Assembly: GCA_013204605.1 (NCBI GenBank)
Contig: JABMNI010000052.1
Location: 1-59,250, forward strand
From: Ignavibacteria bacterium
GTDB lineage: Bacteria; Bacteroidota; Ignavibacteria; Kapaibacteriales; Kapaibacteriaceae
DNA: 59,250 bases
Direction: 5' to 3'
Shown: positions 173 to 58,512 of the stretch, piece by piece
Layout: every line of letters begins with the position of its first letter
Numbering within the stretch: the first letter of the stretch is position 1
Translations under genes and position numbers: made by a program
The notes under the pieces: model-generated
Told to the model about the DNA's origin: nothing
What the model saw: only the letters and a program-made list of their open reading frames with translations
The model's database searches: none

Positions 173-1462
173 ATGAGTGCCAACTACATGTCGGGTTTTG
201 GAAATGAATTCGCTACTGAAGCGGTAAAAGGGGCTTTACCGGAGGGTAGGAATTCGCCGCAGCAACCGGCGTTCGGCTTGTACGCCGAACAAATTAATGG
301 CACCGCATTTACAGCCCCACGGCACTCTAACAAGCGTTCGTGGATGTACCGGATACGCCCTTCGGTGGTTCACAGTCCGTATAAACGCATCGATAATGGG
401 CTTATCAGGTCAAGCCCCTTTAACGAAGTAGAAACCACTCCAAACCAGCTGCGGTGGAGTCCGATTGCTATTCCCACAAAGCCCACTTCATTCCTTGACG
501 GGATAATTACGATTGCCGGAAATGGCGATCTGAGCACGCATTGCGGTGCTGTAATTCATGTGTATGTGGCTAACAGGTCGATGGTTGACGAATACTTTTA
601 CAATGCCGATGGCGAAATGCTGTTCGTACTGCAACAGGGCGACCTTGTATTCCATACCGAAATGGGTAAAATCGAGGCGATTCCGGGCGAGATTGTGGTG
701 ATTCCGCGGGGAATAAAGTTTAGAGTGGAATTAGGTGGGCCCAGCAGGGGCTACATTCTTGAAAATTATGGAGCCGCATTTAAGCTGCCGGATTTGGGTC
801 CGATTGGTGCAAATGGTCTGGCCTATCCACGAGATTTTCTGACACCGGTGGCCGCCTATGAAGAAAAAACGGGCGAGTTCTCAGTGACTGCGAAATTCAT
901 GGGAAATATGTGGCGTGGCACGTACGATCATTCACCGCTTAACGTGGTGGCGTGGCACGGTAATTACGCCCCGTACAAATACGATTTGCGCAAATTTCAG
1001 TGTATTAATTCGGTTACGTTTGATCATCCGGATCCTAGTATTTACACGGTGCTGACAGCGCCAACGGATACTCCCGGGACCGCGAATGTTGACTTTGCAT
1101 TATTTCCGCCGCGCTGGATGGTGGCCGAAAACACGTTTCGTCCGCCGTGGTTCCACCGCAATTTCATGAACGAATTCATGGGTCTCATCGAAGGCGTGTA
1201 CGACGCCAAGGAGGGCGGCGGCTTTGAACCGGGTGGTGCGAGTTTGCATAATTGCATGAGTGGCCACGGACCCGATGCCGAAACCTACGCTAAAATGACA
1301 AAGGCAGAACTAAAACCTGTAAAGCTCACAGATACATTGGCATTTATGTTTGAAACGGGCTTAGTGGCCCGCCCAACCGCATTTGCAATGAGCTGCGCGG
1401 AACTTCAAAACGATTATTGGGAATGCTGGCAGGGCTTGGTTCCTGAGTTCAAAAAACCGTGA
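173..1462 (+). CDS. hmgA: Homogentisate 1,2-dioxygenase
   Basis: This is a 429-residue cupin-fold iron dioxygenase of tyrosine/phenylalanine catabolism that opens the ring of homogentisate to maleylacetoacetate in the cytosol. The N-terminal [11 protein letters not shown] block is diagnostic. Aligned by eye with the human enzyme, the iron ligands are H328, E334 (in HRNFMNEF) and H365 (in HGPD), and the catalytic base is H285 (in DHPDPS). All are present and the length is normal. The ATG at 173 was kept; a second ATG at 188 sits right before SGFGNE and cannot be excluded. No other gene of the pathway lies next to it: tRNA-Arg is upstream and the SRP RNA downstream. Presumably a single-gene transcript. 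Confidence 0.96.
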
Positions 1463-1477
1463 TTGATTTTACTTTAC

Positions 1478-1485
1478 TATCTTTG
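1478..1485 (+). promoter_or_regulatory. Candidate -7 element (TATCTTTG) for the SRP RNA
   Basis: TATCTTTG matches the TAnnTTTG -7 consensus used by the primary sigma factor of Bacteroidota-like bacteria. It lies 24 bases before the predicted 5' end of the SRP RNA. No convincing -33 TTTG at the usual distance is visible, so the assignment rests on the -7 box and position alone. Confidence 0.4.
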
Positions 1486-1508
1486 CCTCCCTTAATTCGA
1501 GAATCACG

Positions 1509-1602
1509 GCCAAGTCCCGTGCGGTTGTACCTAACCCAACTCCGCCAGGTCCGGAAGGAAGCAACGGTCAGTTTGCGTACAAAGCGCCACGGTGCACTTG
1601 GC
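1509..1602 (+). ncRNA. ffs: Signal recognition particle RNA (small, 4.5S type)
   Basis: This is the RNA part of the signal recognition particle, which with Ffh targets nascent inner-membrane and secreted proteins. The terminal stem GCCAAGT (1509-1515) pairs exactly with ACTTGGC (1596-1602), and CCGTG pairs with CACGG just inside it. The apical domain carries the conserved GTCCGGAAGGAAGCA segment (about 1549-1563) that binds the Ffh M domain. The molecule is about 94 nt with no Alu domain. A T-rich stretch follows the 3' end. The following rng reading frame can be extended back into this RNA, but that is not the real start. Confidence 0.93.
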
Positions 1603-1624
1603 TTTTGTTTTTAATAGAATACCC

Positions 1625-3229
1625 ATGGTTCGACGAATATTAATAAGTGTAACTCCCGCCCATCTTCGGATAGCAATAACAGAAGATGGTAGGCTTGCCG
1701 AATTGTTTACCGAACGGCCGGAATCGGAACAAAAAGTTGGAAATATCTACCTTGGCAGAGTAAGTAAGATTATCCAAGGTATGAACGCGGCCTTTATAAA
1801 CATCGGACTCGAACAAGATGCGTTCTTGCACTTTAGCGATGTCGACTCTTCGATGGAAGATTATAGTTCCGACGCCTCAGATGACGAAGATGACGATAGG
1901 CCGACCACGCAGCTTTTAGAAACCGCCGATGTAGCTCTGCGTACGGTCCGCCCAGCCCCCTCCAAAAGACTTCCAACATTCTTCACAAAACGTAGCGGTC
2001 AGGTTACCATTAACCTGCAACCCAAACAACGAATTATTGTGCAGGTAACGCGCGATGCGTATCACCAAAAAGGTGTGCGGGTGACAACGAAGGTTGGCCT
2101 TCCGGGACGCAATGTGGTGCTAATGCCGTTCGAAAATTCCGTTGGTGTTTCACGAAGAATTTATTCGGTTAAAGAACGCAAACGTCTGCGCTCGATTTCG
2201 CGCACAATTTTGCCACCTGATACGGGCTGCATTATTCGCACAGCCGCATCGGGGTTGGCGGAAGAAGATGTGATTAGAGATTTTCAGACGCTGGTGGATG
2301 AGTGGGTGGAAATTGAAAAAGAAGTTCAAAAGGCGAAGGATCCGATGCTGCTTCGTGAAGAAGCGGGCATAGCGCATAGTGTGATTCGCGACCTTTTTAA
2401 AGATGATATTTCGCAAGTGATTGTAGACGACAGAAAACTGTACCGCGAGATAAAAGCGTATGTGCAACGCACAGCGCCGCACCTTGATGGTAAGGTTGAG
2501 TTATTTGCCGAAATGGGCGACCTGTTTGCGGTGTACGATATTGAACGCGATGTTCAGCTAACGCATGCAAGAAAGGTTCCGTTGCCAAGTGGTGGTTCGA
2601 TAGTTATGGATCACACCGAGGCCATGGTGGTTGTGGATGTGAATAGCGGTCGTGCCTCGCATGAAAAATCGCAAGAAGGTAATGCACTTAAAACCAATAT
2701 GGAAGCAGCACGAGAAGTTGCTAAGCAATTACGGTTGCGCGATATTGGTGGAATAATTCTTGTGGATTTTATTGACTTTCAACAAGAAGAAAACCGACGC
2801 AAGTTGCTTAACGTAATGCGTGATGAGTTGGCGCGCGATCGTGCAAAAACGGTAGTGTATCCGCTCACGCAGGTTGGTTTGTTGCAAATGACGCGTCAGC
2901 GCATTCGCCAAAGTATGGCCGAACGCAGCAGCGAAGACTGTCCGCTGTGCTTTGGTACCGGCACCGTGCAATCGCCCGATACCACCATTAGTTCAATTGA
3001 ACGTTGGCTGCGCAATTTCCGCGCGCAAACATGGAAGTTTCGCGTTACCGTTGCAGCGCACCCTTATGTGGTGCATTACATGGAACGTCATCCGTCGAAA
3101 TCTACCCGACTCTGGCTGCGAAAATTTACGCTCTTCGTTTCGCTTACCGAAGATGATAAATTGGAAGCAGGAGAGTTCAGATGCTATCTGCCGGGTGTAA
3201 AAAAAGATATTACCCGACAGTACCTTTGA
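1625..3229 (+). CDS. rng: Ribonuclease E/G family endoribonuclease
   Basis: Single-strand-specific endoribonuclease for rRNA and mRNA processing. It has 534 residues from the ATG at 1625; the longer frame beginning with GTG at 1592 runs inside the SRP RNA and is rejected. The N-terminal VRRILISV segment leads into an S1 RNA-binding domain (about residues 35-135) split by an acidic insert rich in Asp. The DNase I-like catalytic part has its metal ligands at D338 (VVVDVNSGR) and D381 (LVDFIDF), 43 apart as in E. coli RNase E (D303/D346). The zinc-link CPLC motif is at C439/C442. There is no long C-terminal degradosome scaffold, so it resembles RNase G or a minimal RNase E. dxr starts 3 bases after its stop, suggesting one transcript. 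Confidence 0.93.
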   Translation: MVRRILISVTPAHLRIAITEDGRLAELFTERPESEQKVGNIYLGRVSKIIQGMNAAFINIGLEQDAFLHFSDVDSSMEDYSSDASDDEDDDRPTTQLLETADVALRTVRPAPSKRLPTFFTKRSGQVTINLQPKQRIIVQVTRDAYHQKGVRVTTKVGLPGRNVVLMPFENSVGVSRRIYSVKERKRLRSISRTILPPDTGCIIRTAASGLAEEDVIRDFQTLVDEWVEIEKEVQKAKDPMLLREEAGIAHSVIRDLFKDDISQVIVDDRKLYREIKAYVQRTAPHLDGKVELFAEMGDLFAVYDIERDVQLTHARKVPLPSGGSIVMDHTEAMVVVDVNSGRASHEKSQEGNALKTNMEAAREVAKQLRLRDIGGIILVDFIDFQQEENRRKLLNVMRDELARDRAKTVVYPLTQVGLLQMTRQRIRQSMAERSSEDCPLCFGTGTVQSPDTTISSIERWLRNFRAQTWKFRVTVAAHPYVVHYMERHPSKSTRLWLRKFTLFVSLTEDDKLEAGEFRCYLPGVKKDITRQYL

Positions 3230-3232
3230 CTC

Positions 3233-4396
3233 ATGATTACTACTGTTCGGGGAATAACTGTACTTGGTTCGACCGGCTCGATTGGTACTCAAACGCTAAA
3301 CGTAATTCAGCAGCACGCCAATCTATTTTCGCTGCGTTTCCTCACGTGCAACACCCGCGTTGAAGATTTAGCAAAACAAGTTGAAGCCTACAAACCTTAC
3401 GGCGTAGCAATTCGCGAAGAAGAAGCTTGGAAAAAATTTAAGCTACTCTGTCCGAATTTTTCAGGCCCAATTCTTTGTGGCGAAAAGGGGCTTTGTGAAG
3501 CAGCTTCCGATTCAGAAACGAATATTGTTATGAGCGCAATGGTTGGCTTTAGTGGAGTTGTACCAACCATGGCCGCAATTTCTTCCGGCAAAACAATTTG
3601 CCTAGCTAACAAAGAAACGCTAGTGTCGGCCGGTGAAATTATTACCTCCGCCGCACACAAACACAAAGCCCCCTTACTCGCCGTCGACTCTGAGCATTCG
3701 GCCATTGCGCAGTGTCTGGTGGGTGAAGATGTGAGCAGTGTTGAGCGAATAATTTTAACGGCATCAGGCGGACCCTTCAAAGATTTCACTGTTGAGCAGT
3801 TGAAAACCGTTACGCCTCAACAAGCGCTTCAACATCCGAATTGGGACATGGGCGCCAAGATTACCATTGATTGCGCCACGCTAATGAACAAGGGTTTTGA
3901 GGTGATTGAAGCCCGCTGGTTGTTCGGGTTGCACGCCGATCAAATTGACGTTGTGGTGCATCCGCAGTCGATAATCCACTCCATGGTGCAGTTTGTTGAT
4001 GGCTCATTAAAAGCACAACTCGGAGTGCCATCTATGTTGGTACCCATTCAATATGCGCTGCTGTATCCGCACCGCCTACCGCTGCAAGTGGATCGCGTGA
4101 ACTTCACTGATTTCCAAAATTTTACGTTCGAACCGGTAGACACTTCGCGATTTCCATGCCTGCAAATTGCGTATGATGTGATGAGCACCGGCGGGAACGC
4201 CCCCTGCATAGCAAATGCGGCCAACGAGATAGCTGTTCAGAATTTTTTGAAGGGGGCTATTGGATTTACCGATATCCCTAAGGTGATAGAATATTCACTG
4301 CTTCAAATGGAAGTGGTGTCTAATCCGTCATTGGCCGCCATTATTGAAACCGACATTGAAGCACGGCGCATAGCCGCATCTTGGAAGAAGCATTGA
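3233..4396 (+). CDS. dxr: 1-deoxy-D-xylulose 5-phosphate reductoisomerase
   Basis: Second enzyme of the MEP isoprenoid pathway: it rearranges and reduces DXP to 2-C-methyl-D-erythritol 4-phosphate with NADPH and a divalent metal. It has 387 residues, near the family norm. The nucleotide-binding GSTGSIG is at 12-18 and NKETLVSAGE starts at N126. Metal ligands are D152 and E154 (DSEHSA) and E223 (MNKGFE). SGGPF and HPQSIIHSM are also present. It sits between rng and rseP with almost no spacing (3 bp and 1 bp), the common dxr-rseP pairing. The AAG GGG GCT codons for LKGAIGF (4250-4258) carry one copy of the dispersed AGGGGGCT motif. Confidence 0.97.
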   Translation: MITTVRGITVLGSTGSIGTQTLNVIQQHANLFSLRFLTCNTRVEDLAKQVEAYKPYGVAIREEEAWKKFKLLCPNFSGPILCGEKGLCEAASDSETNIVMSAMVGFSGVVPTMAAISSGKTICLANKETLVSAGEIITSAAHKHKAPLLAVDSEHSAIAQCLVGEDVSSVERIILTASGGPFKDFTVEQLKTVTPQQALQHPNWDMGAKITIDCATLMNKGFEVIEARWLFGLHADQIDVVVHPQSIIHSMVQFVDGSLKAQLGVPSMLVPIQYALLYPHRLPLQVDRVNFTDFQNFTFEPVDTSRFPCLQIAYDVMSTGGNAPCIANAANEIAVQNFLKGAIGFTDIPKVIEYSLLQMEVVSNPSLAAIIETDIEARRIAASWKKH

Positions 4397-4397
4397 T

Positions 4398-5768
4398 ATG
4401 GATTTTTCGTTGATAACAGTTTTCGCCTTTATACTGGTGATTGGAATTCTTGTTTTTGTACATGAATTGGGTCACTTTCTCACTGCAAAATGGACCGGAA
4501 TGCGCGCCGATGTTTTTGCAATTGGTATGGGTCCACGCATGGTGGGCTGGAATAAGTTCACGGGGTTTTCATTTGGCCCCCTTCCAAAAGATCTAGACCT
4601 AGGCGCCGAAACAGATTACCGTTTGTGTTGGTTCCCGATAGGTGGCTACGTGAAAATTATCGGAATGATTGACGAATCGTTCGATACTGAGCACATGAAT
4701 GAAGAACCAAAGCCGTATGAGTTCCGATCGAAAAAGAATTGGCAGAAAGCCATAGTGTTGTTGGCCGGCGTTACAATGAACATGTTGTTGGCGCTTGGCG
4801 TGTACTGGGTGATGGGTATGACCATTGGCGACGAAGTTCACAACGTGCGCACAGTTGGCTATGTTGAGTCGGGCTCGGTTGCATTTGAAGCCGGTTTTCA
4901 GCGCGGTGATTTAATTGAACGTATCGACGGTAAGGTCCCCGACTCATGGGAAGACGTTGCAGCGAGTTTTATGCGCATCGATGCAGATCAGCACACAATT
5001 CAGGTAAAACGCAGTGACGGGACCAAGGACCAACTTGTAGTTGAAACTGGCGATGTAGTGCGCGCACTTTCTGAGCGAAGGGGGCTTGGCATTATGCCAA
5101 GTGGAGTGGAAACACGTTTAGATGCTGTGATGACTCTCGATCCGGCGGGCAAGGCAGGACTGAAAGCAGGCGACATTGTGTTGGCTATTGATAGCACACC
5201 AATTTACAGTGCTAGCCAGTTGCCAAGAATAATTAGTGCGCGTCCGAACGAAAAAATTGTGATGCACATCAAACGTGCCGATGAAACAATGCCAATCGAA
5301 GTTACGATTGCCGGCAATGGAAAAATTGGGGTGCAGCCATCGGATCAGTTTACTATTGAACCAATTCAAATACTGTATAGCCCCCTACAAGCATTTGTAT
5401 GGTCGGCAGAAAAAATTGAGCGCACCATATCCACAATTTTCGCCTCGGTTACGCAGGTATTTCGGGGCAATGCGGAAGTGAAGGACAGTTTTGGTGGACC
5501 CATTATGATGATGAAGATGGCGGGTGCGGCAATTCAAATGGGTGGCAAAGAATTTTTTGGATTCATGGCGCTAATATCAATTTCGCTTGCGGTGATGAAT
5601 TTATTGCCGATGCCGGGGCTTGATGGCGGACACCTAGTGATAGTGGCAATTGAAAGTGTTATTCGTCGGGAACTGCCAACCAAGGTGAAATTGCGTATTC
5701 AACAAGTTGGTGTGGCGTTGTTGTTGATGCTGATGGCGTTTGTGATTTACGTAGATATAATGCGATAA
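4398..5768 (+). CDS. rseP: Site-2 intramembrane metalloprotease (RseP family)
   Basis: Inner-membrane zinc protease that cuts single-pass proteins within the membrane, classically anti-sigma factors and leftover signal peptides. It has 456 residues. The first membrane helix carries the zinc motif HELGH (H22-E23-L-G-H26). A long non-membrane segment holds two PDZ-like regions (about 150-240 and 235-310), and the C-terminal helix has MNLLPMPGLDGGH, supplying the third zinc ligand. This two-PDZ layout matches E. coli RseP. The gene begins 2 bases after the dxr stop and is followed by surE after 10 bases, so it is likely co-transcribed with both. No sigma-E/RseA pair is present in the window, so the substrate is unknown. 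Confidence 0.95.
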   Translation: MDFSLITVFAFILVIGILVFVHELGHFLTAKWTGMRADVFAIGMGPRMVGWNKFTGFSFGPLPKDLDLGAETDYRLCWFPIGGYVKIIGMIDESFDTEHMNEEPKPYEFRSKKNWQKAIVLLAGVTMNMLLALGVYWVMGMTIGDEVHNVRTVGYVESGSVAFEAGFQRGDLIERIDGKVPDSWEDVAASFMRIDADQHTIQVKRSDGTKDQLVVETGDVVRALSERRGLGIMPSGVETRLDAVMTLDPAGKAGLKAGDIVLAIDSTPIYSASQLPRIISARPNEKIVMHIKRADETMPIEVTIAGNGKIGVQPSDQFTIEPIQILYSPLQAFVWSAEKIERTISTIFASVTQVFRGNAEVKDSFGGPIMMMKMAGAAIQMGGKEFFGFMALISISLAVMNLLPMPGLDGGHLVIVAIESVIRRELPTKVKLRIQQVGVALLLMLMAFVIYVDIMR

Positions 5769-5778
5769 CTGAGTTGAA

Positions 5779-6546
5779 ATGCGAATACTAATTACCAACG
5801 ATGATGGAATAACGGCGAATGGAATTCAGGCGTTGATTGACGCTATGATGACCATTGGCGACGTGGTAGTTGTTGCGCCAGATAGGCAGCAAAGTGCTGT
5901 GGGACATGCGCTCACGGTGTCGAGTCCGTTGCGAGCCACACCCTACCACCGACGCGGTGTACACCTAGGGTACGCTATAAACGGGACACCTGCTGACTGC
6001 GTAAAGTTGGCCGTGAGCACGTTGTTAACGGAGCGACCAGACATTGTGGTGAGTGGAATTAATCACGGAAATAATTCTAGCGTCAATGCAATTTATTCGG
6101 GAACGGTGAGTGCGGCAACTGAAGGTACGTTAATGGGAATTCCATCGATGGCAATTTCTGTAGCCTCGTTCGATGAAGATTTCGACATGACACTCGCGCA
6201 AAAAATTGCCATTCACGTAGCCAAACAACTTTTAACCGTGGGCGTTCCTGCCGGAACATTGCTGAACGTAAACATCCCTGCTGTTGCCGAAAGTGAACAC
6301 AAAGGAATAAAAATTACGCGTCAAGGTAGTTCGGTGTGGGAAGACTATTACGAAATACGTCGCGATCCGCATGGGAAGGATTACTACTGGTTAACCGGAA
6401 ATTTTGTGACGCTAGAAGAACTCCCCGATGCCGATGATATAGCGGTTAAGGACGGATACACGGCAATTACCCCGCTGCATTACGAGCTTACAAATCAAGG
6501 CATTATGGAAACACTAAAAAGCAATGCCGGCCTTACAACATTTTGA
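5779..6546 (+). CDS. surE: 5'/3'-nucleotidase SurE
   Basis: Metal-dependent phosphatase acting on nucleoside monophosphates, linked to survival in stationary phase. It has 255 residues. The N-terminal MRILITNDDG carries the metal ligands D8/D9, followed by VVVAPDRQQSAVGH and by SGINHGNNSS, which supplies the conserved Asn. GTPADCVK is also present. Length and order of motifs are standard. It is the last gene of the apparent rng-dxr-rseP-surE run; 40 bases separate it from the next gene. Confidence 0.95.
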   Translation: MRILITNDDGITANGIQALIDAMMTIGDVVVVAPDRQQSAVGHALTVSSPLRATPYHRRGVHLGYAINGTPADCVKLAVSTLLTERPDIVVSGINHGNNSSVNAIYSGTVSAATEGTLMGIPSMAISVASFDEDFDMTLAQKIAIHVAKQLLTVGVPAGTLLNVNIPAVAESEHKGIKITRQGSSVWEDYYEIRRDPHGKDYYWLTGNFVTLEELPDADDIAVKDGYTAITPLHYELTNQGIMETLKSNAGLTTF

Positions 6547-6586
6547 TTTCAACTTTTGATTACAACTACCTTTCGATATTTGTAGA

Positions 6587-7426
6587 ATGATTGAACACAT
6601 CAACGAAGAACTTTTACGCAGCATAGATGCACACGCAAAAAAGCTGCGTTTTTTATATCGAGTAAAAGGTATAGGTTACGAGCGTGCTTTGGAGTTACCG
6701 TTGATAGCGGAAACGTTAAAGCCCCTTTTCAAAAAAAAATTATCGTATCTCGATATAGGTACTGGACAGTCTGTTTTTCCATCGTGGGTTGCAACGCAAT
6801 CGGAGTGGGATGTAACGTGTTTGGACAAATTTGAATGGGTGAACAAGCAGTACGAATATGCCTCAAAATTGGGTCTGCAAAACGATAAGTATAAAGTAGT
6901 CGTGCGCGACTTTCTGCAAACCGAACTCCCGCCTGAATCGTTCGATGTAATAACGAATATTAGTGTGATAGAGCACTTCGACGGCGAGCTAGATATGGAG
7001 GCAATGGCAAAGAGTGCGCGGCTGTTGAAGCCCGGTGGACACTACATTCTGACCACTCCGCTCAACGATGGTTACGCAAAGGATTGGTACTTGCAAAAGG
7101 ATGTGTACGGTGTGAAGTTCGCCACGAAGCCCGTGTTTTTTCAGCGCCATTACGACGTCGAAAATTTTCAACGCCGAATAATTAATGCATCGGGTCTGCA
7201 AGAAGTAATGCGCAAATACTTCGGCGACTACGACCAACCAATCTTCAACGACAAGATTGTGGTAGGGGGCTTAGCAAAACTCAGAAGAGCAGCAATTCAA
7301 TTGAGAACCGTAGAGTATGCGTTAAAGCACGGCAGTTACCGCGACGTACCAATCTCTATGAGCGGCATGAAAATTTACACGTCGGCCGGCGTGTTTGTGG
7401 TGTTAACAAAACCAATCTCGAGTTAG
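6587..7426 (+). CDS. SAM-dependent class I methyltransferase
   Basis: A 279-residue protein with a class I methyltransferase core. The AdoMet-binding DIGTGQS lies near residue 57, an acidic loop end CLDKF near 80, then FDVITNISVIEHF (about 118-130) and LLKPGGHYILTTPL, all typical of motifs I to VI in the Methyltransf_11/25 families. The substrate cannot be read from sequence. Next to it, facing it, are a GT4 glycosyltransferase and an FkbM methyltransferase, so modification of a surface glycan is plausible. Its 3' end overlaps that of the opposite-strand glycosyltransferase by 4 bp. There is no clear Shine-Dalgarno; GATATTTG lies just upstream of the ATG. Confidence 0.8.
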   Translation: MIEHINEELLRSIDAHAKKLRFLYRVKGIGYERALELPLIAETLKPLFKKKLSYLDIGTGQSVFPSWVATQSEWDVTCLDKFEWVNKQYEYASKLGLQNDKYKVVVRDFLQTELPPESFDVITNISVIEHFDGELDMEAMAKSARLLKPGGHYILTTPLNDGYAKDWYLQKDVYGVKFATKPVFFQRHYDVENFQRRIINASGLQEVMRKYFGDYDQPIFNDKIVVGGLAKLRRAAIQLRTVEYALKHGSYRDVPISMSGMKIYTSAGVFVVLTKPISS

Positions 7427-8559: not shown

Positions 8560-8594
8560 GTTGTGGAAATAAAGAATGCATCATATTGAAAAAA

Positions 8595-9467: not shown

Positions 9468-9528
9468 AGGTATTAGTGCAGTGGGTTTAGAATTATCCAA
9501 AAGTATCGCTTTAATTGGAGAGGTCATT

Positions 9529-11643: not shown

Positions 11644-11662
11644 TAGATTTCGCAAGGATTGT

Positions 11663-11697
11663 AGGGGGCTTTCTGGTTCCTGCAATTGTAGGGGGCT
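11663..11697 (+). repeat. Tandem pair of the AGGGGGCT motif between convergent genes
   Basis: Two copies of ATTGTAGGGGGCTTT lie 27 bp apart (core octamers at 11663-11670 and 11690-11697) in the short gap between the Kelch-like gene and the opposite-strand AEC transporter. The second copy runs into the transporter's stop codon. They are the only two copies of the octamer outside genes in this window and are in the same orientation. They cannot form a hairpin with each other, so they are not a simple terminator. Confidence 0.75.
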
Positions 11698-19329: not shown

Positions 19330-19376
19330 AGAAATGCTTTAGCTGTTTTCCCCGACAAAGCAGCACCCCCAATTCA

Positions 19377-50224: not shown

Positions 50225-52359
50225 TGGGTATAAAGAAGTGTCTCGCTATTTTATTGTTGACTTCTGCATTTGTTGTCCCACTAAAATCGCAGTGGTGGTT
50301 GGGTGGAAATTTGAACGACGTGATGTTAACCCAACTTGGAATTTCTGCAAGCGTTGGGTTGATTAATCATGGCGCCTCATTCACACTGCCGTATGCGCCT
50401 ACGTGCTGCAAAGAATACACTGCCGCAAGTTCAATCGGACCCTCAGCATCTGTATTTCTTCGTCAGGAGATTATTAAGCCCCTTCGCATTCAGTTAAGAG
50501 GCTCATACATTCCTCAAAATGGATTGTTCGAAACCGACGAGACGCTACTGCTTTCGAATTCGGTGAACGGAATTTCAACGCATGCGTTGGATGTGAAACT
50601 GGGGTGGCTTGGGGCTGAGTTGTTGCTTGATCTCAACGTAGCCGGCGGATTTAGGGTTATTGCGGGGATGAACGCTGGGACGTTTTTGAGTCCTACGTTT
50701 TCGCAAAAGGAAACGCTAAAAAGCCCTGCAACGGGTACGTTCGAGAATGGACAACGAGTTCGAAATGAATCGACCGACATTGCACTTCAAGATGCCAGCG
50801 GACTTAAATTGGGAATCGTTGGCGGCGTTGGGTACGACATTCCGCTCACGAAAAACCATTCGGTCGTTTTAACACCAGAATTTCTGTACACAGTTGGATT
50901 AAAAGATGTGGTAGAGGGGGCTAATTGGAAAACTACCTCGATTCGTGCCGGTGCTTCGATAGCATTTGCATTAAATGCACCCGAGCCTCCATTACCAATT
51001 GAAAAGAAGCAAATACTTATAGTTGATTCGGTGCACGTGGTGGCTTTGCCAAGCGAGCCGTATCGTCGTGTTGAGGGTTTTGTTACATCAGTTACAGATA
51101 CCAATGTAGTTAGTGACGTGGTGTGGATTGTAACAACTGACTCGCGCACAGATACCGTGCACTCGCCGGCACTTCCCAAAATTAATGCTCGCATAGCAGT
51201 TCGAAGTGTTTCTTCATCAGGTGCTGCATCGGATGTTTTTACAATGAATGTTAGTACGCAGTTTGTTGCCGAAGCACTACCAATATTGCCGGTTATATTT
51301 TTTGATCCACAGGCTGTGAGTTTATCCTTTAGATATAATCAGATTTCCACGCCTTCGCAATTTGATGCAGATGCTATTCCGGCACGTACAACGGCGGTGC
51401 ACCGAGAAGTGTTGAACGTAATTGGACAAAGGATGGCCGAGCAAACTAATTCTACCATTCGTTTGCGCGGAACGGCCGATCCAACTACTGAAAATTCCGA
51501 CTGTGGATTGGCAACGAAACGTGCCGAAGCCGTGAAAGGCTACCTTGTGCGCACGTGGGGGATAAGTGCAGATCGGATAATCGTACTTGAGGGATCGGGG
51601 CAGTGCGCCCCTGAACGTCCAACGCGTCAACCTAGTGAAGAAGGATTTTCAGAAAACCGGCGCGTGGACATCGAAACTGACGACCTACCTTTAATGGGTC
51701 CGGTGCGCAAACGACGTTTCAACGAAGCACGCACGATTGATCCACCACAACTTGTATTCGACCCAGCTGGTAGCAGCACGCAATACGTGACCGACTATAA
51801 GATTACGGCCACTACCGAAGGCACAGTGTTGATTTCCGATGGCGGCAAGGGAAGCCCCCTTAAAAAAACATACGATGTAACGATTGATATGGCGGAAAAA
51901 TTATCGTTAGGTGCACCGGTTCAGGTGAACCTCACCTTGAACGCGCTACAGGGAGTAACTGAAACAGCTACGGCTAAGATTCAGGTGAAAAAGGACACGC
52001 TGAAAACAGAAATTGAGCGCCTAACACTCACGCTGTTCAATGTGGCCAGCGATGCTATTACACCTGTTTCAGAACAGGCCATAAAGCATTTCGTAGAAGA
52101 CGTCCCGGCTGGCAGTACGGTTGTGGTAAGGGGCTTTGCAGACATGTTAGGGAATGCGGATTTTAACAAAAAATTGTCGGCATCGCGCGCGCAATCTGTG
52201 TGTACGGCAATTCGCAAATACCTAACAAAACGTGTTGACCTGCAATGCAACGAGGTTGCAACAGATCGATTCCCACCAGGGATTGATTCGTATAAAACGC
52301 CAGAAGAGCGGTTCTTATCACGCACGGTGCAAATCGAGATTAAGAAAGATCGGAAGTGA
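50221..52359 (+). CDS. Outer-membrane protein with two OmpA-like domains
   Basis: A 712-residue exported protein with a signal peptide ending near LKSQW. The N-terminal part (about 20-255) looks like an outer-membrane beta-barrel of eight or so strands with many Gly and aromatic residues, ending ...AGASIAFALNAPEPPLP. A linker and an Ig-like segment follow. Two OmpA/MotB peptidoglycan-binding-like domains are recognisable: about 375-490 (LRGTADPTTENSDCGLATKRAEAVKGYL ... SENRRVDIE) and about 610-710 (VRGFADMLGNADFNKKLSASRAQSVC ... SRTVQIEI). Having two is unusual. Translation is coupled with the WD40 protein. It may anchor that protein to the cell wall. Its 3' end overlaps the opposite-strand CDF gene by 20 bp. 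Confidence 0.82.
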   Translation: MMGIKKCLAILLLTSAFVVPLKSQWWLGGNLNDVMLTQLGISASVGLINHGASFTLPYAPTCCKEYTAASSIGPSASVFLRQEIIKPLRIQLRGSYIPQNGLFETDETLLLSNSVNGISTHALDVKLGWLGAELLLDLNVAGGFRVIAGMNAGTFLSPTFSQKETLKSPATGTFENGQRVRNESTDIALQDASGLKLGIVGGVGYDIPLTKNHSVVLTPEFLYTVGLKDVVEGANWKTTSIRAGASIAFALNAPEPPLPIEKKQILIVDSVHVVALPSEPYRRVEGFVTSVTDTNVVSDVVWIVTTDSRTDTVHSPALPKINARIAVRSVSSSGAASDVFTMNVSTQFVAEALPILPVIFFDPQAVSLSFRYNQISTPSQFDADAIPARTTAVHREVLNVIGQRMAEQTNSTIRLRGTADPTTENSDCGLATKRAEAVKGYLVRTWGISADRIIVLEGSGQCAPERPTRQPSEEGFSENRRVDIETDDLPLMGPVRKRRFNEARTIDPPQLVFDPAGSSTQYVTDYKITATTEGTVLISDGGKGSPLKKTYDVTIDMAEKLSLGAPVQVNLTLNALQGVTETATAKIQVKKDTLKTEIERLTLTLFNVASDAITPVSEQAIKHFVEDVPAGSTVVVRGFADMLGNADFNKKLSASRAQSVCTAIRKYLTKRVDLQCNEVATDRFPPGIDSYKTPEERFLSRTVQIEIKKDRK

Positions 52360-53338
52360 GATCTGTGTTACGAAGCAGCGTTTTTACGGGACAGTGAGTA
52401 ACACCATTTATTTCGCATGACCTATCGCATGGTGTAACATACACGCGCGGGATAGCTGTAGGAAATTTTATTTTCAAGCGCTCTACGATATCAGCCTCGA
52501 GTATATAAAGTTCTTCCAGCGCGTAATCGAATGGCATTACCAAATCGATTTCGATAAAAATATCCTTGCCTGACCGGCGCGTGTGAACACGTTGGAATTC
52601 GCACATCCGATTGTTGTTTTCCACAATGATCTTCAGAATATCGAATTGCATTTTATCGGGCAGGGTTCGATCTAGTAACTGCCGATACGCTTCTGCACCA
52701 TGCCTGAGAGGAACATACAGAGTTACGGCAAGTAATAGAATACTTGAAATTCCATCGAACAATGTTGCATAGCCAAGGTAGCCATTGTAACGAAGCAACC
52801 CGCTAATCAAAACACCTGCAATGATTCCAATTTCAACAATTGAATCAACACGCCACAGCTCGGCATCGTACTCCAACATTGGCAAGTGAAAACGAGTAGC
52901 GTACTTCTGCAGTCGTCTCATTGTATTGCGCATAACAAGCAAGCTTACTATCGACCACGATACAAGTAGCCACGTGCTAGATTGGGTAGGGGGCTCTTCC
53001 CACCGTGAAAAAGCTTCAACGAGTGTAAAAATTGTTAGGACAGCTAGAAGGTTGGAACTAACGAGGATGGCTAAACTCTCGTATTTCCCGTAACCGTAGT
53101 TAAACGTTACATCTGCCCTACGCATAGATCGTTCAACGGCCGCTAAAAAAAGTAGCGCAGTACCTACGTCGATCAGAGATATCAAACCATTCGTTTGAAT
53201 GATCAGAGAGTTTTCAGTTAATCCGGCAACAATGCCGCCAATAGCAAGCACCACGCAGGCCACCAAGCCCATACTAGAAGCATATAGCGCAGAGTCTCTA
53301 CGAAAGAAGAATCGAAATTTTTGTCTAATGGGAAGCAT
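52340..53338 (-). CDS. Cation diffusion facilitator (CDF) family transporter
   Basis: A 332-residue membrane transporter with about six helices and a cytoplasmic C-terminal domain. CDF features are present: NGLISLIDVGTALL in helix 2, FNYGYGKYESLAIL after helix 2, and DAELWRVDSIVEIGIIAG in helix 5. The usual helix-2 and helix-5 HxxxD metal set is altered: Asn or Asp stand where His is common, so the metal cannot be guessed, though iron or manganese is more likely than zinc. The C-terminus ends with a Cys/His group (TPCDRSCEINGVTHC), which could bind metal. uxs lies 9 bp upstream on the same strand, so they are likely in one operon. Confidence 0.82.
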   Translation of the reverse strand: MLPIRQKFRFFFRRDSALYASSMGLVACVVLAIGGIVAGLTENSLIIQTNGLISLIDVGTALLFLAAVERSMRRADVTFNYGYGKYESLAILVSSNLLAVLTIFTLVEAFSRWEEPPTQSSTWLLVSWSIVSLLVMRNTMRRLQKYATRFHLPMLEYDAELWRVDSIVEIGIIAGVLISGLLRYNGYLGYATLFDGISSILLLAVTLYVPLRHGAEAYRQLLDRTLPDKMQFDILKIIVENNNRMCEFQRVHTRRSGKDIFIEIDLVMPFDYALEELYILEADIVERLKIKFPTAIPRVYVTPCDRSCEINGVTHCPVKTLLRNTDLTSDLS

Positions 53339-53347: not shown

Positions 53348-54295
53348 CTATTTTTTAATAGCGAGTGCTTGACGGAAATACTCGATCGTCTGCAACAGTC
53401 CTTCTTTACGATCAACCTGGGGCAACCAATCAAGTTCACGTTTAGCCACCGTAATATCCGGCTGTCTAATCTTTGGATCGTCGTCAGGTAGATCCTGAAA
53501 AACAATCTCGCTCTTAGAACCCGTTAACTCAATTACCTCTTGTGCCAACTGAAGCATAGTTAGCTCATCTGGATTTCCGATGTTCATTGGTGTTGTGAAA
53601 TCACTATTGAGCAGACCGTATAAGCCCCTTACCAAATCGGAAACGTAACAAACACTTCTTGTTTGACTGCCGTCACCAAAAACTGTGACCGGCTCGTTGC
53701 GTAGGGACTGGGAAATGAAAGCCGGAATAGCGCGACCATCTTCTACGCGCATACGTGGACCGTAGGTGTTGAAAATTCTGACAATTCTCGTGTCGACGTT
53801 ATGATACCGATTGTAGGCCATCGTTAGGGCTTCGGCGAAACGCTTTGCTTCATCGTACACACCGCGAATTCCAACCGGGTTAACATTCCCCCAATACGAT
53901 TCTTCCTGCGGGTGTACCAAAGGATCGCCATAAACTTCACTAGTTGAAGCCAGCAAAAACCGTGCACCCTTTGCCTTGGCTAAACCAAGGGCTTTGTGGG
54001 TGCCAATCGAACCAACCTTTAACGTTTGGATTGGATACTTGAGGTAATCTAGTGGCGAAGCTGGGCTAGCGAAGTGTAACACCGCATCCAACCGGCCCTG
54101 CACGTGGATGAAATTGGTAACATCATACTGTACCAATTCAAACATCGGATTACCAATCAAATGACCCACGTTATCGGGCGATCCGGTTATAAAGTTGTCG
54201 ATGCAAACAACCCTGTAACCCTCGTTAATAAACTTGTCGCACAAATGCGAACCAAGAAATCCGGCACCCCCGGTAATCAATACTCTTTTTGTCAT
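53348..54295 (-). CDS. uxs: UDP-glucuronate decarboxylase (UDP-xylose synthase)
   Basis: A 315-residue extended short-chain dehydrogenase that turns UDP-glucuronate into UDP-xylose for glycan synthesis. The NAD-binding TGGAGFLG is at 8-15. The catalytic triad is STSE (about 117-120) with Y147-x3-K151 (YDEAK). [23 protein letters not shown] and [22 protein letters not shown] are close to UXS proteins (quoted as ASPASP and [13 protein letters not shown]), as are [11 protein letters not shown] and [15 protein letters not shown]. It would feed the surface polysaccharide genes in this window. A strong hairpin (54330-54354) lies between it and the upstream carbonic anhydrase gene. Confidence 0.9.
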
Positions 54296-54374: not shown

Positions 54375-54998
54375 CTACTCGTAGAAGTCCACGGCGCCTG
54401 TATCAACGTTGTACATGCCGCCTATCAAAGCAATTTCAGAATTCACAAGCATCTCATGTAGAATTGGACTCTTTTCGTGAATTTGTTCTAGTGCAATCCG
54501 AACGTTAAGAGCGGCTACTCTTTCAACAAATTCTTCATTACTGGAGTTCCTATCCTCGATGGTCAGGTTCTCAGCACCAACCGCCGGCTTCAGCTTTTCA
54601 ATTAGGGCCGTCAGGTTCCCCAGTTTCACGTCATCACAAGCCCCCTTCACAGCGCCACACTTTGAATGACCAAGTACAACAACGGCTTTGGCACCGACAA
54701 CTTTACACGCGAACTCCATGCTGCCTAGAATATCCTCGTTAAGAATGTTGCCGGCAATTCGTACGCTGAAAATGTCACCTAGCCCTTGATCAAAAATCAA
54801 CTCCGCTGACGTTCGAGAGTCGATGCAACTCAGCACAACTGCAAATGGGTGTTGTCCATCGGATGTTTCATTGACTTGCTGCAACAAATTTCGATTTGCC
54901 TTCAAATTATTTACAAAACGATCATTGCCTTTTCTGAGGATATCGATGGCCATTTCAGGCGTCAGTGAATTTTGAATTTCTTTTGTTAGTGTTCTCAT
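54375..54998 (-). CDS. can: Beta-class carbonic anhydrase
   Basis: A 207-residue zinc enzyme that interconverts CO2 and bicarbonate. The zinc ligands and the Asp-Arg dyad are all visible: C58-x-D60-x-R62 (SCIDSR), then H111 and C114 (HSKCG). The length suits the bacterial beta class. No signal peptide: cytosolic. The SulP transporter gene lies 29 bp upstream on the same strand, so both are likely on one transcript. That pairing suggests the transporter brings in bicarbonate and the anhydrase balances it for carboxylation reactions. The AGGGGGCT motif falls in KGACDD codons. Confidence 0.93.
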   Translation of the reverse strand: MRTLTKEIQNSLTPEMAIDILRKGNDRFVNNLKANRNLLQQVNETSDGQHPFAVVLSCIDSRTSAELIFDQGLGDIFSVRIAGNILNEDILGSMEFACKVVGAKAVVVLGHSKCGAVKGACDDVKLGNLTALIEKLKPAVGAENLTIEDRNSSNEEFVERVAALNVRIALEQIHEKSPILHEMLVNSEIALIGGMYNVDTGAVDFYE

Positions 54999-55027: not shown

Positions 55028-56575
55028 TTATGCGTTTGAAAATTGTTCGAGATTTATTGTTTTAACCGAAATGTTTTTGGATTTTGCTTGCGTTTGAAAA
55101 TCCTGAATGATTTCCAACACGTCGAAGTGAATGCTTCGCGAATTTGTTGCGTCGATGGTGACATTCGAGTTAGCGGGAATGTGATTCAACATTTGAAGAA
55201 TACTTCCTTTATTCAAGAACGACACTTCTTCTGATAGTTTAACAACGTGTTCGGCACCTTCTTTTGCATCACCCTTAAACATGTAGAAAGGATTTTTGAA
55301 GTTGTTGCGTAGCATAAACACAATTGCAAACACCATTCCAATGCCAATACCTTTTAGAAGATCAGTTAACAGAATACCTACCACTGTGACAATAAACGGC
55401 ACAAACTGTTCCCAACCTTGTTTGTACACAAGCTTAAACAAGGCAGGCTTTGCAAGCTTGTAGCCTACAACAAAAAGAATCGAGGCTAACGTGGCTAGCG
55501 GAATCATGTTTAGAACGTTTGGGATAGCGATGGCGCTGCCAAGAAGAAACACCCCATGAATGATGGCGGAAAGCTTTGTTCTGCCACCGAATGTTATGTT
55601 AGCTGAGCTTCGCACAATTACTTGCGTTAACGGTAAGCCCCCTATAAGACCCGAAACTATGTTGCCTACGCCCTGTGCCTTCAACTCGCGATTAGTTGGC
55701 GTAACGCGCCTGAGCGGATCGAGTTTGTCTGTAGCCTCTACACACAATAGCGTTTCTAGACTGGCAACTATGGCAAGCACAAAGGCAATTACATAGATGT
55801 CCGTATTTCCTAACTGCGAAAAGTCTGGCAGTGTAAACTGACTCAAGAAACCTGACACACTTGATGCTACGGGAATTTGTACAATATGCTTGGCATCTAG
55901 GGTGAAGGGAAGGAGGGAAGATTGGAACAAGTAGTTTATGGTTATTCCAACAGCCACGGCGACTAGCGGACCGTTTATCATTCCAAAAATCTTATGCTTT
56001 TTTGCTAGCACGAGTTCCCATAAAAGGAGCACCGTCATTGAAGCACCTGTGATAATTACAGCGGCTGGAGAGATAAATCCAAAAATGTTACCCAATTCCG
56101 AAAACGTGTTTTGTCCGTCGGCTTGCATGAACGACGTCGAACCCTCAAAATCCGCATCATAGCCAACAGCATGTGGTATTTGTTTTAGAATAATCAGCAA
56201 TCCAATTCCCGTTAACATACCTTTAATCACAGAAGACGGGAAGTAGTAGGCTATGGTTCCCAGTTTCATATAGCCTGCGGCAAGCTGAATTACACCGGAC
56301 AGTACAACCGCGAGTAAAAAAGCCTCCCACGACCCTCCAAGCGTTGCAATGGCACTCATTACTATCACGGCAAGTCCCGCCGCCGGTCCACTGACCCCGA
56401 GTGGCGACCCACTCAAAATTCCGACAACACCACCACCCACTATGCCAGCAATTATACCGGCAAACAGAGGAGCTCCCGACGCCAAGGCTATGCCAAGGCA
56501 TAGAGGTACTGCTACAAAGAAGACAACAATACTTGCCGGAAGGTCCTGCTTTATGTTGCTAAAAACGTGTTTCAT
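55028..56575 (-). CDS. SulP family anion transporter with STAS domain
   Basis: A 515-residue inner-membrane transporter of the SLC26/SulP family: about fourteen membrane segments, with PASIVVFFVAVPLCLGIALASG at the N-terminus (quoted as VPLCLGIALASGAP), ...GVSGPAAGLAVIV..., TLLCVEATDKLDP and RELKAQGVGNIVSGLIGGLP. The C-terminal STAS domain (about 430-515) has VTIDATNSRSIHFDVLEII. SulP members carry sulfate, bicarbonate or dicarboxylates. The adjacent beta-carbonic anhydrase strongly favours bicarbonate. It is divergent from a TetR-family gene 105 bp away with inverted repeats between them, so regulation by that protein is likely. Confidence 0.9.
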   Translation of the reverse strand: MKHVFSNIKQDLPASIVVFFVAVPLCLGIALASGAPLFAGIIAGIVGGGVVGILSGSPLGVSGPAAGLAVIVMSAIATLGGSWEAFLLAVVLSGVIQLAAGYMKLGTIAYYFPSSVIKGMLTGIGLLIILKQIPHAVGYDADFEGSTSFMQADGQNTFSELGNIFGFISPAAVIITGASMTVLLLWELVLAKKHKIFGMINGPLVAVAVGITINYLFQSSLLPFTLDAKHIVQIPVASSVSGFLSQFTLPDFSQLGNTDIYVIAFVLAIVASLETLLCVEATDKLDPLRRVTPTNRELKAQGVGNIVSGLIGGLPLTQVIVRSSANITFGGRTKLSAIIHGVFLLGSAIAIPNVLNMIPLATLASILFVVGYKLAKPALFKLVYKQGWEQFVPFIVTVVGILLTDLLKGIGIGMVFAIVFMLRNNFKNPFYMFKGDAKEGAEHVVKLSEEVSFLNKGSILQMLNHIPANSNVTIDATNSRSIHFDVLEIIQDFQTQAKSKNISVKTINLEQFSNA

Positions 56576-56668: not shown

Positions 56669-56680
56669 TGTAGCATACTT

Positions 56681-57358
56681 ATGGAAATGACAGTAAACAT
56701 CAAACTGAACAACAAGCTATTCCTGCGAAATCCGGATGAATCTGAGCTTGGGAAAAAAATACTGCAATACAGTATCATCCTGATCCATAGGATTGGATTT
56801 GAGGCGTTCACCTTCAAGAAATTAGCTGCTGAAATTGGCACAACAGAGGCGGGAGTGTACCGGTACTTCGAAAACAAACACAGGTTACTGTTGTACCTAG
56901 TTGACTGGTATTGGAGTTGGCAGGAGTATCGGTTGATCTACGCAACGAACAATATTTCAGACCCAACTGAAAAACTGTCAATCGCGATAAAACTGCTGTC
57001 TACATCCGTCGAAGATGACACTTCTACCTCGTACATCGACGAAAAACTACTCTTTGAAATCGTGATTATGGAGGGGGCTAAATCATATCTGACTAGACAT
57101 GTAACGGAAGATAATAAGCACCGATTATTCAAACCTTACAAAGATCTATGCGCAAGAATTGCAGATATTATACTTGAGTGCAACCCTACGTACAAGTATC
57201 CAAGATCTCTTGCTAGTTCTGCTATCGAAATGGCTCACTCGCACAACTTTTATGTCAAGCATCTGCCATCGCTAACAGATTTTAACTCACTCAATACAAC
57301 TCACAACGTCCCAGATTTCATAGAAGACATGGTGTTCTCGGTGATTAGAATACCATGA
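56681..57358 (+). CDS. TetR family transcriptional regulator
   Basis: A 225-residue regulator. The N-terminal helix-turn-helix is standard: IGFEAFTFKKLAAEIGTTEAGVYRYFENKHRLLLYLVDWYW, quoted as LAAEIGTTEAGVYRYF (about residues 47-62), with the Tyr-Phe-Lys-type DNA contacts. The rest is all-alpha and has no family resemblance that names a ligand. It is divergently oriented to the SulP-carbonic anhydrase pair and probably represses it and itself. The ATG at 56681 has no strong Shine-Dalgarno. Confidence 0.85.
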   Translation: MEMTVNIKLNNKLFLRNPDESELGKKILQYSIILIHRIGFEAFTFKKLAAEIGTTEAGVYRYFENKHRLLLYLVDWYWSWQEYRLIYATNNISDPTEKLSIAIKLLSTSVEDDTSTSYIDEKLLFEIVIMEGAKSYLTRHVTEDNKHRLFKPYKDLCARIADIILECNPTYKYPRSLASSAIEMAHSHNFYVKHLPSLTDFNSLNTTHNVPDFIEDMVFSVIRIP

Positions 57359-57548
57359 TATAGTGTCAATGGATCGGCGAAGATTTCGTTAACAAACATT
57401 TGGCTGAACTTCGCGCCTATATTGCGATTCTTCCTTAAGTAAACGCGGTTGAACCTACGAGTCAAAATCAAAAAAAAGAAAACAAAAAAAAGGCTGACGT
57501 GATAGCGTCAGCCTTGAGATTATCAGAAATAATTTCAACTATACTGCT
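57359..57548 (-). terminator. Intergenic gap with a rho-independent terminator (minus strand)
   Basis: Within this gap AAGGCTGACG (57490-57499) pairs perfectly with CGTCAGCCTT (57506-57515) around TGATAG. On the minus strand it is followed by a long T-rich run (57465-57489). It ends transcription of the lipoprotein gene upstream at 57549. The remaining 100 bp (57360-57460) show no gene or repeat I can name. Confidence 0.88.
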
Positions 57549-58004
57549 TTAGAACTTCAACGAGAATTTGCCTTCAGTTACCGTCTTAGCACCACCAGAG
57601 GAGTTTTGTCCGATAAAGGAGAAGGTTCCTTCAACTTCAGTAGTGTTGATCTTTGAAATCACCACGGTCCCAGATCCTGAAGCTGGGTTTGCCGAGTACG
57701 CGTCAGCCGCTGTTGTACCACCTGAATATGATGCAGAAGCACCACTAGCAAAATTCGATAAATCATACGTTCCGGCAGCGGTTCCACCAATCAGAAATAT
57801 CACGATTGATTTAATTCCCACAGAGCCTGATATGACTAGTGTGCCGCTGTTAATAACGGCTGAAGAAAGTGTTGTTCCGTCCCACGCAGCGCCATCCACC
57901 TTGGCCGTCATGTACTTTGTTGCTGCGGGCGGATTTGTTGTTGAGCTGCTACATGCTCCAATAATGAGTGAAACAGCGATGAATGCTGCTACAATTGTTT
58001 TTAT
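57549..58004 (-). CDS. Small lipoprotein (DUF6252-like), possible ATA start
   Basis: A lipoprotein with a lipobox IIGAC and a beta-rich mature part: MTAKVDGAAWDG, repeated GT..T..., GTVVISKINTTEVEGTFSF and a C-terminal GKFSLKF. This matches small beta-barrel-like lipoproteins of the DUF6252 type, of unknown role. Its paralogue lies just upstream. The long frame starts at an ATG at 58085 within the last codons of that paralogue and adds a charged N-terminus with no sense. A normal signal (IKTIVAAFIAVSL) would begin at an ATA codon at 58002-58004, preceded by AGGGA at 6 bases. The coordinates follow that choice; a non-ATG start is unusual, and the long form cannot be excluded. Confidence 0.6.
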   Translation of the reverse strand: MKTIVAAFIAVSLIIGACSSSTTNPPAATKYMTAKVDGAAWDGTTLSSAVINSGTLVISGSVGIKSIVIFLIGGTAAGTYDLSNFASGASASYSGGTTAADAYSANPASGSGTVVISKINTTEVEGTFSFIGQNSSGGAKTVTEGKFSLKF

Positions 58005-58059
58005 GTTTTCCCTAGGTAAACGTTTAGAATTATGGTTGAAAAATTTGAGGCAATTTTTA

Positions 58060-58512
58060 CTAAAATTTGAGATTAAACTGTCCATTCGTTACAATCTTTT
58101 TTATGTTAATGGTGTTGGCGAGTTCCAGAGTAAAAGTGCCAATCACCTCGGCACTATTTAACGTTGTAATCTGCATGGTTCCAGTACCAGCCCCTTTATG
58201 AGCAAGAAACGGCGACCCAGAAGTAGGCCCCACACTAATCAATGCAACGCTATTATTTGGTAGGCCAACCCCGAATTGGTATGTGCCAACACCCGCAATC
58301 CCTTGCATGGTTAACTGCATTGTAATGTTGTCACCAACGCCGTACATGGCCAATACATCTTCGCTCATACCAACCTTTATTGTTCCAGATGCCGCCCAAT
58401 CAACTCCGTCAATTGTAGCTCTAAGCCCATTAGGCACGGGGTCTGTGCTTCCACTACAAGCTGAAATCAGCAATGTAATAATTAACGACAATCCAAATTT
58501 TAATACGTACAT
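58060..58512 (-). CDS. Small lipoprotein, paralogue of the downstream gene
   Basis: A 150-residue lipoprotein: signal sequence with lipobox LISAC, then a beta-rich mature part with ATIDGVDWAASG, GTGTMQITTLNSAEVIGTFTLEL and a C-terminal GQFNLKF. The end and the GTF-x-(8-12)-G-x-F-x-LKF pattern are shared with the downstream gene, so the pair arose by tandem duplication with much divergence. Function unknown; surface or periplasmic side of the outer membrane. The ATG at 58512 starts the signal directly. Confidence 0.65.
   Translation of the reverse strand: MYVLKFGLSLIITLLISACSGSTDPVPNGLRATIDGVDWAASGTIKVGMSEDVLAMYGVGDNITMQLTMQGIAGVGTYQFGVGLPNNSVALISVGPTSGSPFLAHKGAGTGTMQITTLNSAEVIGTFTLELANTINIKKIVTNGQFNLKF

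Follow-up and report, generated by a model that had tools for sequence, protein, structure and literature searches.

Preferential recognition of self DNA by means of short repeated words is known from the DNA uptake sequences (DUS) of the Neisseriaceae and the uptake signal sequences (USS) of the Pasteurellaceae, according to excerpts of a recent account the only two families known to discriminate DNA in this way (PMC12616744, 2025). Here we describe an octamer, ARGGGGCT (R = A or G), that is over-represented throughout the genome of an Ignavibacteria bacterium and came to notice as an excess of AGGGGGCT and AAGGGGCT in a stretch of 59,250 nt (contig JABMNI010000052.1), referred to below as the window. 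Both known uptake-word systems use type IV pili. Like DUS, ARGGGGCT is a short, asymmetric word that is found about once per 1–1.5 kb, in both orientations, within genes and between them, and in dialects. Unlike DUS, it is a different word, has orientation-specific spacing over ~1 kb, belongs to a Bacteroidota-like lineage and occurs where no pilus ATPase scored over the search cut-off, so that one would not look for a pilus receptor of the ComP type.

The likeness to USS lies in a rigid core, soft flanks and a similar density. The comparison with Pasteurellaceae densities in the original prediction was apt: ARGGGGCT occurs about once per 1.4 kb in its own genome, close to the ~1 kb given for Haemophilus USS in an excerpted source (PMC7811141). 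Excerpts of another paper describe USS as unbiased in orientation round the chromosome and in excess outside genes, and cite the even spacing of known words (PMC1939737). The present word is likewise without orientation bias beyond that of controls, and likewise in excess outside genes. The T-rich stretch follows the core in USS, whereas here it precedes it. Very short-spaced pairs are few here, in contrast to the 109 USS pairs within 14 bp given in the excerpts of PMC7811141; further differences from USS are the pilus ATPase, not over the cut-off, and an avoidance between neighbouring copies that depends on orientation.

We tentatively favour, as a reading that could easily be wrong, that ARGGGGCT is a putative self-recognition sequence for natural transformation, similar to DUS and USS but served by another machine. 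It is preferred because of the genome-wide enrichment of the word, its confinement to part of one family, its dialects, its trait-dependent retention and the lack of polarity beyond controls. Support is only partial because uptake itself is predicted only, no pilus ATPase was found over the cut-off, and the spacing is orientation-specific.

Genome-wide enrichment and distribution of ARGGGGCT

The over-representation of the octamer is real and genome-wide. In the 2.69-Mb genome to which the window belongs (86 contigs), ARGGGGCT occurs 1871 times (960 + 911 on the two strands) and the reversed word, our control, 82 times (34 + 48); for AGGGGGCT the counts are 474 + 424 versus 7 + 5. This whole-genome comparison took the place of the octamer ranking proposed with the original prediction, and the excess held. 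It also stood against an order-3 Markov expectation, computed on 319 kb of genome G000, where 104 copies of AGGGGGCT were observed and 3.9 expected. AAGGGGCT is present in the same 319 kb in 104 copies, and each remaining single substitution of AGGGGGCT in 1–12. Thus the octamers originally singled out are real, but the unit is better written as ARGGGGCT with degenerate flanks: on the 5′ side of the core a short run of T-rich sequence followed by K and G, and on its 3′ side genus-specific preferences (Y, G, G at positions 12–14 in G000; G, G at 11–12 in G004). The core is unchanged in samples spanning 46 to 61% GC. Coverage is even, with a mean of 8.65 sites per 20 kb (variance 6.56) in G004 and 12.73 (variance 14.64) in G000. 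Beyond ~20 bp the flanks of different copies are unrelated, and outside the word there is neither homology nor a palindrome, which rules out a mobile or repetitive extragenic palindromic (REP) element.

A word favoured by an orphan methyltransferase or another modification-dependent process seems to us an improbable explanation. That such iteration can occur is illustrated by HIP1 (highly iterated palindrome 1) of cyanobacteria, a single octamer that is also strongly over-represented genome-wide, for which excerpts of the source give a possible methyltransferase link and a palindromic sequence (PMC4390886). The present word, unlike HIP1, is non-palindromic and has dialects, and its flanking preferences are soft. 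Restriction sites, moreover, are usually neutral or avoided, which counts against a modification-linked origin.

The distribution of the word was followed in 23 genomes of the family, from genera g1 to g7, and in 100 genomes from nine other families of the order. ARGGGGCT exceeds the reversed control at least five-fold in all 18 genomes of g1 (1), g4 (6) and g5 (11), with a roughly five-fold spread of site density between species of g5; G011, a 100% complete genome, has 1734 sites. The excess is seven-fold in the one genome of g6 (457 versus 63), weak in g7 (158 versus 87) and absent from the three genomes of g2 (104 versus 104) and g3 (68 versus 131 and 121 versus 182). None of the 100 genomes from the other families reached five-fold, the highest ratio among those with more than 100 copies being 106 versus 34 (G053). 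Samples of 12–40 kb from ten genomes of these nine families held no comparable octamer, though sparse words could escape samples this small, and literature searches found neither the octamers as whole words nor any uptake word reported for this lineage. Whole-word searches would miss words embedded in longer sequences. In G023–G028 (family f2) and G120–G122 (f10), the reversed word used as control, TCGGGGRA, is common in its own right, with up to 438 copies in 1.8 Mb (G023), as a codon effect or another word.

Dialects are seen at position 8. T predominates there in G000 and, among the g4 genomes sampled, in G004, G007 and G008; g5 and the g4 genomes G005 and G006 have T or G. ARGGGGCG is common in g5 (for example, 1182 versus 82 in G011), G005 (474 versus 65) and G006 (341 versus 39), and modest in g1 (193 versus 65). 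Genus g7 has a dialect of its own, with A or G at position 8 and, in 84% of 97 ARGGGGC sites, G at position 11; in its genome G022, ARGGGGCRNNG occurs 504 + 486 = 990 times versus 19 + 33 = 52. Elsewhere the counts for this form are 287 versus 32 in g6, 107 versus 47 in g2, and 121 versus 95 and 72 versus 139 in g3. A midpoint-rooted ComEC tree that included 17 proteins from other families, with low support on several branches, has g2, g3 and g7 branching off close to the family's base, followed by g6 and then by g1 + g4 and g5; a DprA tree, in which two rows were very long, was left out of account. Apparently the motif originated, or became stronger, inside the family, the alternative being loss in g2/g3.

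Retention, strand use and orientation-dependent spacing

Retention was examined at BLAST-aligned homologous positions, with permuted octamers of the same composition as controls; pairs were counted in both directions and the species are related, so that p-values overstate significance, and the effects are large. Between close pairs (88.5% identity) 18/22 sites were kept versus 972/2049 controls (1.7 times). The corresponding figures were 99/222 versus 1723/18650 within g5 and 38/137 versus 1147/14334 between g5 and g1/g4, retention in distant motif-bearing pairs being 3.5–5 times that of same-composition octamers. From motif-bearing genomes into g2/g3, by contrast, 4/61 sites and 624/6231 controls were kept, without any excess. 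Since the excess appears only between motif-bearing genomes, whether retention rises above background depends on the presence of the trait in the recipient. The word is maintained by something beyond protein coding.

These controls, applied by strand and at homologous positions instead of codon shuffling, leave the excess unexplained by coding bias. With genes defined as longest open frames, the sense share of sites was 59.7% in G000 (controls 61.1%) and 61.0% in G004 (controls 56.5%), and intergenic sites were in excess in two genome samples (22/208 versus 480/7876 for controls; 32/173 versus 826/11299). Readings as Lys-Gly-Ala and Lys-Gly-Leu are common among the sites, as a codon or amino-acid bias would have it. 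The sites nevertheless occupy both strands and every frame, the sense share matches that of control octamers, intergenic DNA is enriched, the same word recurs across the range of GC contents, homologous sites are lost in motif-free relatives, and flanks soon become unrelated. Codon or amino-acid bias and copies of a repeat element are therefore refuted by the strand, frame, intergenic, GC, retention and flank controls, and we give them next to no credence.

Mapping of the copies against replication, as suggested with the original prediction, did not yield a polarity above that of control octamers. In G004, a single contig whose replichores were guessed from the GC skew of 20 samples, 96 sites lay with and 77 against the local skew (55.5%; same-composition octamers 54.6%), and a two-arc split gave 57.2% versus 54.7% for controls. 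In G000, where only the local skew of 13 stretches was taken, the counts were 85 versus 76 (52.8%; controls 57.8%). As a yardstick, 13 × 50 kb (650 kb) of Escherichia coli K-12 contained 128 Chi sites (GCTGGTGG), 108 of them on the leading strand under assumed ori and ter positions, and 31 copies of the reversed word. The absence of replication-strand bias beyond controls argues against an E. coli-like Chi and against FtsK-orienting polar sequences (KOPS), and with no replichore skew beyond control octamers in the samples of both genomes a guide for a translocase, of the KOPS or SpoIIIE recognition sequence (SRS) kind, is ruled out.

The spacing of the sites was analysed in sampled motif-bearing sequence from eight genomes of g1, g4 and g5, with 60 control octamers. 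Same-orientation pairs are depleted at short distances, with an observed/expected ratio of 0.14 at 10–50 bp, followed by 0.34, 0.40, 0.37, 0.52 and 0.46 in the bins to 800 bp, 0.71 at 800–1200 bp, 0.89 and 0.86 to 2.4 kb and ~1 farther away. For opposite-orientation pairs the ratio in single bins to 2.4 kb lies between 0.66 and 1.48, with no depletion overall; same-orientation pairs of control octamers are not depleted overall either (0.72–1.49 per bin below 1.2 kb). When strands were shuffled at fixed positions, none of 1000 shuffles was as low as the 107 same-orientation pairs observed within 1.2 kb (mean 160). By genus, the depletion is clear in g1 and g4 and weaker in g5, with none in one g5 bin (400–600 bp). 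It is repeated in g7 with that genus's own dialect (6 same and 15 opposite within 1.2 kb, 15.1 expected each). The 46 loosely defined sites of the g6 sample lack it up to 1.2 kb (10 same and 8 opposite pairs, 11.1 expected) and show it at 1.2–2.4 kb (3 same, 18 opposite, 10.5 expected).

Avoidance of this kind would result from reading of single-stranded fragments or from a one-strand enzyme, and would not be produced by an orientation-blind receptor for double-stranded DNA. It suggests that in the motif family the two strands act as independent substrates and that reading is strand-specific. Directional import of double-stranded flanks was rejected as a candidate, because it predicts fewer convergent than divergent pairs, which the 103 versus 111 pairs at 50–1200 bp do not show; at 10–50 bp there are 0 versus 8. 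Orientation-dependent spacing is a mechanistic clue, and the features given for known words in the excerpted sources are even spacing and short inverted pairs rather than this.

A Chi-like role, in which a nuclease of AddAB type reads one strand while resecting breaks and then switches to recombination, with sites in both orientations kept by repair selection, would also be strand-specific, and we consider it unlikely. The word resembles E. coli Chi, which is reportedly read in single-strand form, in being a G-rich, asymmetric octamer with apparent one-strand reading, and PDDEXK_1 proteins that look AddB/AddA-like (putative, mostly open frames of ~1000 residues) are encoded in 23/23 family genomes. 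These proteins are found in motif-free g2 and g3 too, however, and the roughly five-fold density difference among g5 species is awkward for such a role. E. coli Chi differs further in its leading-strand bias, in an enrichment of just 4-fold over the reversed word, and in lacking net same-orientation avoidance within 1.2 kb (22 pairs observed, 22 expected), a comparison of few pairs and low power. By range, its same-orientation pairs number 6 versus 1.7 expected below 100 bp and 8 versus 13 expected at 100–800 bp, so that weak avoidance is possible there.

A site for a chromosome-wide DNA-binding protein acting in nucleoid structure, segregation or repair, unlinked to import, would account for precise recognition with flanking preferences, even coverage and trait-dependent retention. 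The independence of the two strands would be odd for a double-strand binder, and protein-binding sites of this sort are not known to number hundreds per Mb or to differ in dialect from one sister genus to the next at such density; this explanation, too, we hold to be rather unlikely. Among the roles offered in the original prediction, an uptake signal is therefore best supported; KOPS can be discarded, and a Chi of the E. coli kind is unlikely; the site of a DNA-binding or DNA-modifying protein stays in the list.

Import as the proposed process and its candidate machinery

We infer that DNA import underlies these patterns and that reading of the word involves one strand. Fragments bearing the word would be imported or integrated preferentially, and biased import (molecular drive) would spread it and keep it genome-wide. 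The dialect would follow the receptor, and one-strand reading could take place, for example, at a step acting on single-stranded DNA in pieces of ~1 kb. We put forward more doubtfully the wider proposal that this may be a third, independently evolved uptake word, the first outside Neisseriaceae/Pasteurellaceae and the first not tied to competence by type IV pili, with ~1-kb single strands as the substrate that is read and with several stages of birth and dialect change in one family. Were it a third case, it would show that a pilus is no prerequisite for such words, and how uptake sequences originate would become testable in a family that offers absence, weak enrichment, full enrichment and dialects side by side.

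Competence genes, which had been recommended as a check, are widespread in the family: ComEC was found in 21/23 genomes (missing in G012 and G014), a ComEA-like HHH_3 protein in 22/23 (missing in G006) and DprA in 22/23 (missing in G018). A candidate surface unit, common in the family, is an operon that encodes an outer-membrane barrel (TonB plug, CarboxypepD), a DUF4397 protein and a DUF5689/endonuclease-fold protein with a tail like those of the type IX secretion system (T9SS), as at L056:2580-8604 (−); the matches for plug, DUF4397 and tail are just below their cut-offs. All three genes occur together in 19/21 DUF5689 loci, the exceptions being a second piece in G016 (L192) and L188 of G005, whose neighbours were unmatched. 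DUF5689 is present in 20/23 family genomes, and the operon in motif-free genera too. Since it does not track the motif, the operon could at best be part of the machine and would not account for its specificity.

Excerpts on Riemerella state that transformation needs ComEC, DprA, ComF and RecA together with proteins bearing DUF5689, CarboxypepD, HHH and DUF1343 domains, described as a unique machinery (PMC8459023), and that R. columbina takes up its own DNA preferentially (PMC7965970). The family shares with Riemerella ComEC, DprA, an HHH protein and adjoining genes for outer-membrane CarboxypepD-type and DUF5689 proteins, a likeness between operons by domain names, not sequences. In contrast, the DUF5689 protein here also has an endonuclease-fold domain, and the possible uptake words tabulated in the excerpts of PMC7965970 are A-rich.

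Several results weigh against the import reading. Motif-free g2 and g3 have the competence genes just as motif-bearing genera do, and every genome in which one was missed is a motif-bearing draft. A PilB/PilT-type ATPase (PF00437) scored over the cut-off in 0/23 genomes, with three weak partial matches, in a search that did not extend to pilins or secretin; the receptor is consequently unlikely to be a pilin from an ordinary type IV pilus. DUF5689 was not found in G011, complete and rich in sites as it is, and the candidate operon may therefore be dispensable. Avoidance is seen between same-orientation copies and not between opposite ones, which is unexpected for a word that works either way round, and uptake by Haemophilus is reportedly independent of motif orientation (excerpts of PMC1939737). 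A literature search found no uptake experiment for this lineage. Depletion of the word in foreign DNA finds no support in the longest gap without the motif from the G000 sample (L047 2635-15337): a scan of 8 proteins shows that it carries ordinary genes of the chromosome, including recR and dnaX.

Two sparse stretches of G004 have other contents. A thin stretch (L029, 7 proteins) gave matches to a phage-collection ATPase and to unknown families. The gap at L039 ~700-11700 consists of repeats with a ~66-bp period, has no open frames of 150 residues and looks like a very long array of clustered regularly interspaced short palindromic repeats (CRISPR); k-mers of its repeat unit occur ~160 times in the G004 samples.

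Copies of the word and other features in the window

Recounting of the window agreed with the copy numbers first given: 28 exact copies of AGGGGGCT (18 plus, 10 minus), where shuffled sequence had a mean of 0.76 and a maximum of 3, and 19 of AAGGGGCT (8 plus, 11 minus). A precedes 28/29 GGGGGCT sites, all reading frames are used, and two AGGGGGCT copies lie between genes (11663 and 11690), each as originally described. So does the claim for T-tracts stand, an identical 21-mer that includes T-tract and AGGGGGCT being shared by 4243-4263 (+) and 8216-8236 (−). The lean towards the coding strand is correct as a count (19/26 genic AGGGGGCT copies), but such a preference is not above that of same-composition octamers in the G000 sample, and AAGGGGCT has hardly any (10/19). 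The sites are as follows.

1954-1961, minus, AGGGGGCT site
3667-3674, minus, AGGGGGCT site
4251-4258, plus, AGGGGGCT site, T-tract before, inside the 21-mer identical to 8216-8236
5079-5086, plus, AGGGGGCT site
5379-5386, minus, AGGGGGCT site
7264-7271, plus, AGGGGGCT site
8221-8228, minus, AGGGGGCT site, T-tract before
11663-11670, plus, AGGGGGCT site, intergenic
11690-11697, plus, AGGGGGCT site, intergenic, 27 bp from the 11663 copy, a rare close same-orientation pair
13751-13758, plus, AGGGGGCT site
20522-20529, plus, AGGGGGCT site
21087-21094, minus, AGGGGGCT site
22352-22359, minus, AGGGGGCT site
24463-24470, plus, AGGGGGCT site
29478-29485, plus, AGGGGGCT site
31376-31383, plus, AGGGGGCT site
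34064-34071, minus, AGGGGGCT site
35224-35231, plus, AGGGGGCT site
41861-41868, plus, AGGGGGCT site
44632-44639, plus, AGGGGGCT site
48601-48608, plus, AGGGGGCT site
49605-49612, plus, AGGGGGCT site
50915-50922, plus, AGGGGGCT site
51853-51860, minus, AGGGGGCT site, T-tract before
52988-52995, plus, AGGGGGCT site
54639-54646, minus, AGGGGGCT site
55636-55643, minus, AGGGGGCT site
57072-57079, plus, AGGGGGCT site
228-235, plus, AAGGGGCT site
3485-3492, plus, AAGGGGCT site
14040-14047, plus, AAGGGGCT site
15261-15268, plus, AAGGGGCT site
28138-28145, plus, AAGGGGCT site
38758-38765, plus, AAGGGGCT site
46344-46351, plus, AAGGGGCT site
52128-52135, plus, AAGGGGCT site
413-420, minus, AAGGGGCT site
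6720-6727, minus, AAGGGGCT site, T-tract before
13940-13947, minus, AAGGGGCT site
16702-16709, minus, AAGGGGCT site
25848-25855, minus, AAGGGGCT site
29030-29037, minus, AAGGGGCT site
44853-44860, minus, AAGGGGCT site
48064-48071, minus, AAGGGGCT site
50477-50484, minus, AAGGGGCT site
53623-53630, minus, AAGGGGCT site
58189-58196, minus, AAGGGGCT site

In a tree of one protein, DXR (29 named rows), the window has a long branch and is the sister of the Bacteroidota sampled; the T9SS tails fit this position. Other features of the window are a tRNA-Arg (29-103), a small signal recognition particle (SRP) RNA (1508-1606) and a thiamine pyrophosphate (TPP) riboswitch (39041-39144). Two 56-nt stretches, 15713-15768 and 19363-19418, are 88% identical, 3.65 kb apart and close to the ends of large open frames. 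The intergenic gap 32847-32937 contains three tandem units of ~33 bp, each with the palindrome GACGCATGCGTC, and a 15-bp tandem repeat, GGAGCTTCAACTTCT-like, occupies the window edge at 59122-59248.

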